Shown: positions 18,889-38,470 of the stretch, in pieces | Position numbering within the stretch: position 1 is the first letter of the stretch | Layout of the letters: every line of letters starts with the position of its first letter | NCBI GenBank assembly: GCA_015067485.1 | Contig: SVMJ01000004.1 | Span: forward strand, 62,001 to 126,000 | DNA from: Oscillospiraceae bacterium | GTDB lineage: Bacteria; Bacillota; Clostridia; Oscillospirales; JAAYXM01 | Direction of reading: 5' to 3' | DNA length: 64,000 bases | Position numbers and translations under genes: made by a program | Notes under the pieces: generated by a model | Database searches by the model: none | What the model was told of the DNA's origin: nothing | Seen by the model: only the letters and a program-made list of their open reading frames with translations

Positions 18889-18965
18889 GCGCTCGTAGCT
18901 CAGCTGGATAGAGTACTTGACTACGAATCAAGGGGTCACAGGTTCGAATCCTGTCGGGCGTGCCA
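18889..18965 (+). tRNA. tRNA-Arg (anticodon ACG)
   Basis: Cloverleaf with acceptor GCGCTCG/CGGGCGT (G-U pairs allowed), D-arm, anticodon loop CTACGAA with anticodon ACG (read as ICG), T-arm GGTTCGAATCC and encoded CCA. Confidence 0.95.
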
Positions 18966-18966
18966 C

Positions 18967-19007
18967 AAAAAGACCACATTTGTCCGTCGGACAAATGTGG
19001 TCTTTTT
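18967..19007 (+). terminator. Terminator of tRNA-Arg
   Basis: A 19-bp perfect stem (AAAAAGACCACATTTGTCC with its complement) and a 3-nt loop, starting right after the CCA and ending in five T. Confidence 0.9.
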
Positions 19008-19009
19008 GC

Positions 19010-19150
19010 ATGATGTTTGCCTGTCGTCAAATGATGACGCTAACGCTAATGATGTTTTCTTCGGAAATGATGTCGCTTCGCGAATGTTGCGGGCAAACAT
19101 CACATCATTGCGAGAAAAGCGAGCAACATCATGAAGCGAAGCATCACACC
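19010..19150. repeat. Array of small hairpins spaced by ATGATGT
   Basis: Short palindromes, TTTC-TTCG-GAAA (19056-19067), CGC-TTC-GCG (19074-19082) and TTGC-GG-GCAA (19087-19096), are separated by ATGATGT (19010-19016, 19049-19055, 19067-19073). The right half uses the complement ACATCAT (e.g. 19126-19132), so the whole array is itself roughly inverted around 19090-19100. It lies between the tRNA-Arg terminator and the promoter of the four-helix-bundle gene. It is not coding. Confidence 0.65.
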
Positions 19151-19160
19151 ATGTACATCG

Positions 19161-19189
19161 TTGAAAAATTTTACTGTTTATGGTATAGT
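19161..19189 (+). promoter_or_regulatory. Promoter of the four-helix-bundle gene
   Basis: TTGAAA (19161-19166) and TATAGT (19184-19189), 17-bp spacer, 24 bp before the start codon. Confidence 0.65.
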
Positions 19190-19212
19190 AAATCGAAAAG
19201 GGGGCATTTTTT

Positions 19213-19565
19213 ATGAAAGATAATAAACTTGCCACACTTTCTATGGATTTTTCGGTTGAGATTATCAATCTTGTAAAGCACTTAAAATCAAACCACGAAT
19301 CAATCGTTTCCAATCAAATCGGCAGAAGCGGGACTTCCATTGGCGCCAATATCCACGAAGCGCAATATGCGCAGAGCAAAAAGATTTTATCTCTAAACTG
19401 GAAATTGCGCTAAAAGAAGCAAGCGAAGCAAGTTATTGGCTGAAACTTATGTACGAAACCAAAAGAATCAATATCGAGACCTATCAAAACACCGAAAGCC
19501 TGTGCGGAAATATTCGTAGACTTCTAATCGCATCTTGCAAGACGGCAAAACAAACAAAGGAGTGA
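19213..19565 (+). pseudogene. Four-helix-bundle (S23/Avd-like) protein, frameshifted
   Basis: The first frame gives KDNKLATLSMDFSVEIINL, NQIGRSGTSIGANIHEAQYA, then breaks off at a stop at 19411. Reading one base back from the A5-G run (19378-19383) restores the family sequence DFISKLEIALKEASEASYWL to a TGA at 19563, about 117 residues in all. This matches the small four-helix-bundle family found in 23S rRNA intervening sequences and related to the Avd protein of diversity-generating retroelements. A missing A in the homopolymer is the simplest cause; -1 slippage or an assembly error are alternatives. The last codons (AAGGAG TGA) form the ribosome site of the next gene. Confidence 0.8.
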
Positions 19566-19569
19566 TATT

Positions 19570-38086: not shown

Positions 38087-38100
38087 TACTTTCCATAAAA

Positions 38101-38139
38101 AAACATCTCAAGACTTTAGTAAGTACTTGAGATGTTTTT
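38101..38139 (-). terminator. Terminator after the zinc-ribbon gene and hairpin array
   Basis: AAACATCTCAAG (38101-38112) and CTTGAGATGTTT (38126-38137), 13-nt loop, A/T tracts on both sides. Confidence 0.75.
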
Positions 38140-38142
38140 CTC

Positions 38143-38221
38143 GTTGCGAAGCAACATATCGCATCGAAGATATATCGCGTGCGCAGGCACATATCGAAAA
38201 TTCCGAAGGAATTTATATCGC
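38143..38221. repeat. Array of four small hairpins spaced by ATATCGC
   Basis: GTTGC-GAA-GCAAC (38143-38155), ATC-GAA-GAT (38163-38171), GTGC-GCAG-GCAC (38179-38190) and AAATTCC-GAA-GGAATTT (38198-38214) are each perfect stems. Each is followed by ATATCGC or ATATCGA (38156-38162, 38172-38178, 38191-38197, 38215-38221). Three of the four loops are GAA. It lies between the stop of the zinc-ribbon gene and its terminator, so it would be the 3' untranslated part of that mRNA. Confidence 0.75.
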
Positions 38222-38230
38222 TGTCGAGTG

Positions 38231-38470
38231 TCATTTCTCTCCTTTCAATTTTCTATAAAGGAACAAAATGCAATCTCTTATCAGTTCAAATAACTCAATG
38301 ATGAGGAAAATTCCGGGATGGTAGTCGCCATAACGATATGGTGTCTCGACTATATGTTTCATTTGTCCGCAACCCTCACAAAGTTCAAAATCTTTTGACA
38401 GAACACAGGTGTGTTCCGAAAGTTCACATTCATTGATTTCGTTCCAGCAATCCAGACAAAACTCTGCCAC
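38231..38470 (-). CDS. Small zinc-ribbon protein, GTG start
   Basis: 79 residues. CLDC near the N-terminus and CEGC at about 32-35 (ELCEGCGQMK) form a likely zinc ribbon. A hydrophobic helix (GIFLIIELFELIRDCILFLY) and a basic end follow. Short proteins with the CLxC ... LCEGCG pattern are common near mobile regions of Clostridia; I know no function. GTG at 38470 follows AGGGGGG. It has its own promoter and a dyad, divergent from an XRE regulator. Confidence 0.75.
   Translation of the reverse strand: MAEFCLDCWNEINECELSEHTCVLSKDFELCEGCGQMKHIVETPYRYGDYHPGIFLIIELFELIRDCILFLYRKLKGEK

Follow-up and report, generated by a model that had tools for sequence, protein, structure and literature searches.

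A linker-hairpin array in an Oscillospiraceae genome as a probable decayed half of a REPIN-like miniature element accompanied by four-helix-bundle protein genes

The intervening sequences (IVS) of 23S rRNA, for example in Coxiella, have been described as selfish elements of unknown function, and the S23 protein is a ring of five four-helix bundles (PMC4990558). The corresponding protein family, PF05635, resembles the Avd protein of diversity-generating retroelements (4DWL versus 2GSC; PMC10053308), and four-helix-bundle (4HB)/IVP proteins have also been reported in cas loci (PMC3936711, PMC10910872). Short intergenic heptamers have been described in the Beggiatoaceae, where TAACTGA is repeated head-to-tail with no hairpins between the copies (PMC4679880).

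Here we analyzed a 64-kb stretch of DNA from an Oscillospiraceae bacterium (hereafter the window), which contains an array of four mini-hairpins of different sequence joined by a 7-nt linker. We consider this array to be most probably (about 0.7) a decayed solo left half of a REPIN-like miniature mobile element that would be served by a protein of the Avd/IVP type. The likeness to REPIN/REP-RAYT systems lies in short, dispersed, inverted palindromic pairs, in the occurrence of solo copies, in a trans-acting gene that accompanies some copies as their cognate and in a co-inherited signature; complete copies form an inverted palindromic pair with strand polarity, and the window copy is a single half. 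Unlike REPINs, each half here contains three to four different mini-hairpins on a fixed 7-nt linker, the gene encodes a four-helix-bundle protein with no association with Y1 transposases, and inspection revealed no GTAG/CGTC tag at the foot of the palindromes, the linkers being ATATCGC or other heptamers. As in the 23S rRNA IVS, a homologous PF05635 protein goes with a selfish element that has complementary ends and encodes no known enzyme, but the copies described here occupy promoters, tRNA ends and other intergenic sites rather than rRNA helices, their noncoding part is a linker-hairpin array, and many are solo copies lacking the gene. Diversity-generating retroelements share a related protein with our elements, which have no reverse transcriptase, template or variable repeat. 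Membership of both the REPIN/RAYT and the retroelement classes was rejected for lack of association with Y1 or with the reverse transcriptase domain RVT_1. The Beggiatoaceae heptamers are likewise intergenic 7-nt sets, and were rejected as the same thing since they have no hairpins, by that paper's description. CRISPR arrays consist of long repeats with unrelated, non-palindromic spacers, whereas the constant part here is 7 nt long and the spacers are palindromic. A preliminary description of the window, made from the sequence alone, had stated that the array does not fit REP, BOX or CRISPR layouts, a judgement that our analysis supports.

We found no description of linker-hairpin arrays with 4HB genes in the open-access literature (subscription journals and preprints lay outside the search). 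Judged on that literature, the element could represent a new category; on a stricter view it could be a variant of the IVP-encoding selfish elements.

The window array and its neighbours

The features of the window are listed in Table 1. Direct reading of the forward strand gives four perfect hairpins with stems of 5, 3, 4 and 7 bp and with GAA loops in three of the four (GCAG in the other), separated by ATATCGC twice and ATATCGA once and closed by a terminal ATATCGC, so that stems, loops and linkers had been described correctly to the base. This is the sole chain of at least three identical 6-mers with hairpins between them in the 64-kb window, and no such chain arose in 60 dinucleotide-preserving shuffles. 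Folded as a single molecule, the half-array has only modest stability (RNA z of -1.1 for the plus and -2.8 for the minus strand; DNA z of -1.65 and -1.74), so its notable feature is the layout and not the total energy. The array has no match in Rfam 15 at the gathering score, the only Rfam matches in the window being two tRNAs.

Table 1. Positions of the array components and of other features in the window
Feature	Position	Strand	Remarks
Array ATGATG/CATCAT (second array)	18970-19190	+	Preceded by a tRNA with its terminator, followed by a 4HB gene
Frameshifted four-helix-bundle (TIGR02436) gene	19214-19566	+	Goes with the second array
Symmetric terminator-like hairpin, 14-bp arms	38099-38139		Abuts inner end of the half-array
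CTC preceding hairpin 1	38140-38142		Conserved; GAG on the opposite strand
Hairpin 1, GTTGC-GAA-GCAAC	38143-38155	+	Innermost in the left half; read from sequence
Linker ATATCGC	38156-38162	+	
Hairpin 2, ATC-GAA-GAT	38163-38171	+	
Linker ATATCGC	38172-38178	+	
Hairpin 3, GTGC-GCAG-GCAC	38179-38190	+	
Linker variant ATATCGA	38191-38197	+	Fixed linker of a sister 4HB subclade
Hairpin 4, AAATTCC-GAA-GGAATTT	38198-38214	+	Conserved outermost hairpin of the left half
Terminal linker ATATCGC	38215-38221	+	
TGTCGAGTGTCA	38222-38233	+	Read from sequence, compared with complete copies
79-aa Cys-rich ORF	38231-38470	-	Zinc-ribbon-like by CxxC motifs; stop codon abuts the array

Read on the minus strand, the array corresponds to the left half of complete elements found elsewhere, with AAATTCC..GGAATTT outermost and GAG after the innermost hairpin. 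The slot of hairpin 1 and the CTC/GAG are the same in three other loci (L191, L183 and L192), a hairpin identical to hairpin 2 occurs in arrays of G158, G145, G255 and L073, and an arm of hairpin 4 recurs in the core of complete elements. The terminator-like hairpin stands where complete elements carry their core and right half, which the window copy appears to have lost. The TGTCGAGTGTCA sequence is probably a degenerate remnant of the outer hairpin, which in complete copies has the form TGA-hairpin-CA.

The Cys-rich ORF points towards the array and stops about 10 nt short of it, its stop codon overlapping TGTCGAGTGTCA on the minus strand; the order on that strand is stop codon, array and terminator-like hairpin. 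The product has no Pfam or NCBIfam domain, and the ORF is supported as a gene by an ortholog in the same genus (G001). The preliminary description had assigned the array to the 3' end of this zinc-ribbon mRNA. That assignment is not supported, since the same element is found behind promoters and tRNA ends and between unrelated genes, and since the ortholog has a stop codon directly followed by a terminator, with no array, in a comparison that consists of one distant ortholog (37% identity) and includes no DNA-level empty site. Loop and wobble polarity, described below, likewise favours the other strand over that of the mRNA. Given the recurrence of the element in unrelated contexts and its absence beside the ortholog, we rejected a structure peculiar to this mRNA.

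At 18889-19566, a tRNA, a terminator, an ATGATG/CATCAT hairpin array and a frameshifted 4HB gene follow one another. This region is a decayed element of another linker type.

Complete elements and the adjoining 4HB genes

Complete elements are approximately 200-330 bp long, and many of them directly precede a 4HB gene, as in the window's own genome and at four loci from other genomes. In the direction of the gene, they consist of an outer perfect hairpin, a left half, a core, a right half and a short tail. The left half contains three to four GCGATAT-hairpin units and the right half three to four ATATCGC-hairpin units, which makes the halves inverted and their linkers complementary. The left half reads GCGATAT-AAATTCC..GGAATTT-GCGATAT-hairpin-GCGATAT-hairpin-GCGATAT-hairpin-GAG; the core repeats one arm of the first hairpin and ends in GGAATTTATATC, and the tail contains TTGGCATCTAAA or a similar sequence. 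Tandem GA.GA mismatches were seen in 32 of 87 right-half hairpins versus none of 69 in the left half. As RNA, the whole element folds far better than its shuffles (z of -7.7). A conserved ORF starting in the tail was considered and ruled out, its frame not being conserved.

The adjoining 4HB genes have 113-119 codons (about 115 aa), and their product matches PF05635 (23S_rRNA_IVP, E ~1e-22) and TIGR02436 (four helix bundle protein, E ~1e-25), with 2RLD as a relative of solved structure (E 6.5e-28). The window copy itself encodes no PF05635/TIGR02436 protein, whereas complete copies often adjoin one. Proteins of the IVP/S23 four-helix-bundle type occur in many bacteria and, to our knowledge, have no known function; nor do we know of any catalytic activity in the 4HB family. 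In our sample the family is present in 35 of 59 relatives, with up to nine matches per genome.

Other 4HB genes are preceded by similar arrays with different linkers, including ATTTAGC, ATTTCAC/ATTTCAT, ATATAAC/ATATCAC, ATATCAT and CATCAT. At least two hairpin-separated pairs of identical 7-mers were found upstream of 48 of 92 distinct 4HB genes, versus 0 of 460 shuffled sequences and 0 of 56 window ORFs; the same pattern precedes 33 of 505 ORFs in other loci, which had been fetched because they hold arrays. A further 23 of the 92 genes lack any hairpin-separated 7-mer pair, and several of these bear tandem heptamers instead. In other 4HB clades, tandem heptamer-like repeats (TTCACTN, ATTCATA) with no hairpin arrays can be seen upstream of the 4HB genes of L225, L228-L230, L232, L207 and L209.

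The type of linker follows the protein tree (107 columns; a quick tree with many unresolved forks). Of the 18 rows with ATATCG[CA] linkers, 17 fall into one well supported 4HB clade of 20, with the ATATCGA rows forming a subclade of their own, and the ATTTAGC rows also lie in one clade. Mapping linker labels onto the tree takes 27 changes, compared with 57.8 when labels are shuffled. In our reading, the linker is a heritable signature matched to one 4HB clade, and any stem sequence is allowed provided that the stem closes.

The linker pattern recurs widely among relatives. It also marks arrays on another contig of the window's own genome, and a loose two-linker pattern matches 46 of 59 relatives, many by chance, with several genomes containing many genuine arrays. 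A stricter three-linker pattern matches 23 of 291 genomes of the class, 19 of which are genuine on inspection, and a reversed control pattern has no match among the same 291; outside the class, the three-linker pattern was found in one of approximately 380 genomes of a phylum sample. The named matches are mainly metagenome-assembled genomes of gut and rumen Clostridia, Oscillospiraceae, Ruminococcus, Eubacterium and Christensenella. Every one of the 19 genuine array carriers has a 4HB match, versus 71 of 291 genomes overall, a contrast inflated by shared ancestry. In some genomes rich in arrays, the sequence examined contains no intact ATATCGC-clade 4HB gene, and there the loss or borrowing of a gene must be assumed. 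The expectation of a recurring and probably mobile unit, its linkers conserved and its stems covarying, was borne out by these copies in related genomes; second copies, and covariation of their stems, are clearly present.

In the own genome, contig C5 (locus L041) contains a left-half-only copy at 1004-1130, with a TATAAT box on one side and the start codon region of an unrelated gene on the other. This is a second left-half-only copy, so half-copies recur in this genome. At approximately 320-950 of the same locus, the terminator GCAAGCCGAAAGGCTTGCTCTC lies on each side of an element and its 4HB gene, which could possibly be a duplication made on insertion.

Mobility, strand polarity and alternative readings

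Orthologous sites differ in the presence of the element. An element of G118 lies between two genes, and the orthologous gene pair has no element in the congeners G170, G276, G255 and G215 (66-80% DNA identity at this locus). Another conserved promoter is occupied by an ATATCGC element in G255 and by an ATTTAGC element that shares its outer ends in G118, and is free of elements in G170 and G215. This presence/absence evidence concerns relatives of the window copy. Copies are placed just after a -10 box or a tRNA end, and others are found at intergenic sites between unrelated genes. Direct repeats clearly flank a few copies (L174, CCAGGAAAAAA; L200, CCAGAAAAA; L185, TATAAT). Over all copies the signal of target-site duplication is weak (mean 7.4 nt versus 6.1 nt for mispaired flanks; maximum 7.2 in 200 shuffles), and a clean duplication in every copy was not found. 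The mobility of the element family is well supported.

The two strands of the element are not equivalent. On the ATATCGC strand, each half has G..A loops to the exclusion of T..C loops (28:0 and 15:0), and G.T wobbles are more frequent than C.A mismatches (5:0 and 9:2, both small counts). Since the halves are inverted, no single transcript shows both of them in ATATCGC-strand form. Together, polarity and inversion suggest that each half is recognized single-stranded, as happens in REPINs, and speak against a folded leader RNA being the sole functional form.

The element has no nuclease, integrase or polymerase linked to it. The Y1 transposase domain (Y1_Tnp, PF01797) is absent from the window's own genome (83% complete) and from G010, G026 and G048, the latter three of which carry several 4HB genes; the own genome, G010 and G048 (the latter two 98% complete) also lack RVT_1. 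Neither domain is associated with the 4HB family: Y1 occurs in 16 of 35 genomes with 4HB and 12 of 24 without, and RVT_1 in 10 of 35 and 7 of 24, respectively. Because both domains are missing from these genomes and are not enriched with 4HB, we propose that the 4HB protein would act as a specificity factor, with host enzymes doing the chemistry. The protein (23S_rRNA_IVP/Avd family) is taken as the cognate trans-acting factor and, like its solved relatives, would be expected to form a pentameric ring. It would bind each linker and mini-hairpin in single-stranded form on the ATATCGC strand, with the inverted halves marking where the element begins and ends, and host enzymes would copy the element into sites of strand opening immediately behind a -10 box or the 3' end of a tRNA. 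In this way the 4HB protein would mobilize the element.

Three other explanations were weighed against this proposal. The element could be a regulatory RNA leader, that is, a structured 5' UTR through which the 4HB gene regulates itself, with solo copies controlling or stabilizing other mRNAs. Many complete copies do begin right after a -10 box and ahead of a gene, the own-genome half-copy lies between a TATAAT box and a gene start, and the strong fold of the whole element as RNA would suit such a role. We regard it as unlikely, since the loop and wobble polarity of the left half lies on the strand that is not in that transcript, many copies follow tRNAs or separate unrelated genes, and congeneric species differ in whether the element is present at the same promoter. 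Status as a mobile element does not exclude regulatory side effects. A REPIN/RAYT-type system in which a Y1 (HUH) transposase acts in trans would account for inverted palindromic pairs with single-strand polarity, for the many solo copies and for the cognate gene in some; with no Y1_Tnp in the four genomes named above, and Y1 about as common with 4HB as without it, this reading is very improbable.

The remaining explanation bears on what the stems themselves can tell. A perfect stem of 3 bp or longer is present in 368 of the 534 distinct spacers, compared with a mean of 11 and a maximum of 26 when letters are shuffled. At the three outermost stem positions, 81% of cells show Watson-Crick pairing, versus 40% (maximum 43.5%) when 3' arms are exchanged between spacers of the same length, and each of these positions has several pair types. 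The matched stems of differing sequence are real, as is the covariation that the preliminary description had read as compensatory change and hence as selection on structure. The second step of that argument is weakened, in that template-switch correction could also match stems; matching alone therefore does not demonstrate selection. Quasi-palindrome correction is an established mutational process, and the array might be passive inverted-repeat DNA in which template switching or gene conversion keeps the stems and ordinary recombination spreads the copies, with no dedicated factor. Such a process would explain matched stems, and leaves unexplained the fixed linkers, the two-half layout, the fixed loop polarity, the restriction of GA.GA mismatches to the right half, the adjacency to one gene family and the co-inheritance of linker and protein, which makes it improbable.

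If the reading as a REPIN-like element with a 4HB specificity factor is true, a widespread repeat of uncultured gut bacteria would be mobile DNA that lacks a recognised transposase, located at promoters and tRNA ends, where gene expression can be altered, and the matching of linker to protein type would point to an undescribed mode of DNA spread. For the 4HB family, the linker-matched array in this class offers a concrete, testable ligand. Co-inheritance of linker and protein also suggests a possible account of how the 23S rRNA intervening sequences spread. More tentatively, and with odds we would place somewhat below even, IVP/Avd-type proteins may confer specificity on a large and so far undescribed class of miniature mobile elements, in which each protein clade would read its own 7-nt linker among mini-hairpins that vary freely, no nuclease or polymerase would be encoded, transcription starts and tRNA ends would be the targets, and the 23S rRNA IVS would form one branch.

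In other phyla, and in most of the viral contigs, chance or coding repeats mainly account for matches to the linker pattern. Genuine ATATCGC hairpin arrays, up to three per contig, can be seen in the IMG/VR contigs L387, L429 and L458. A protein search also retrieved two unannotated fecal 'phage' scaffolds (L466 and L467; MT835815.1 and MT835590.1), each containing a 4HB gene with an array on its 5' side. These phage-collection scaffolds look bacterial, and in one of the two the array lies just after a tRNA.
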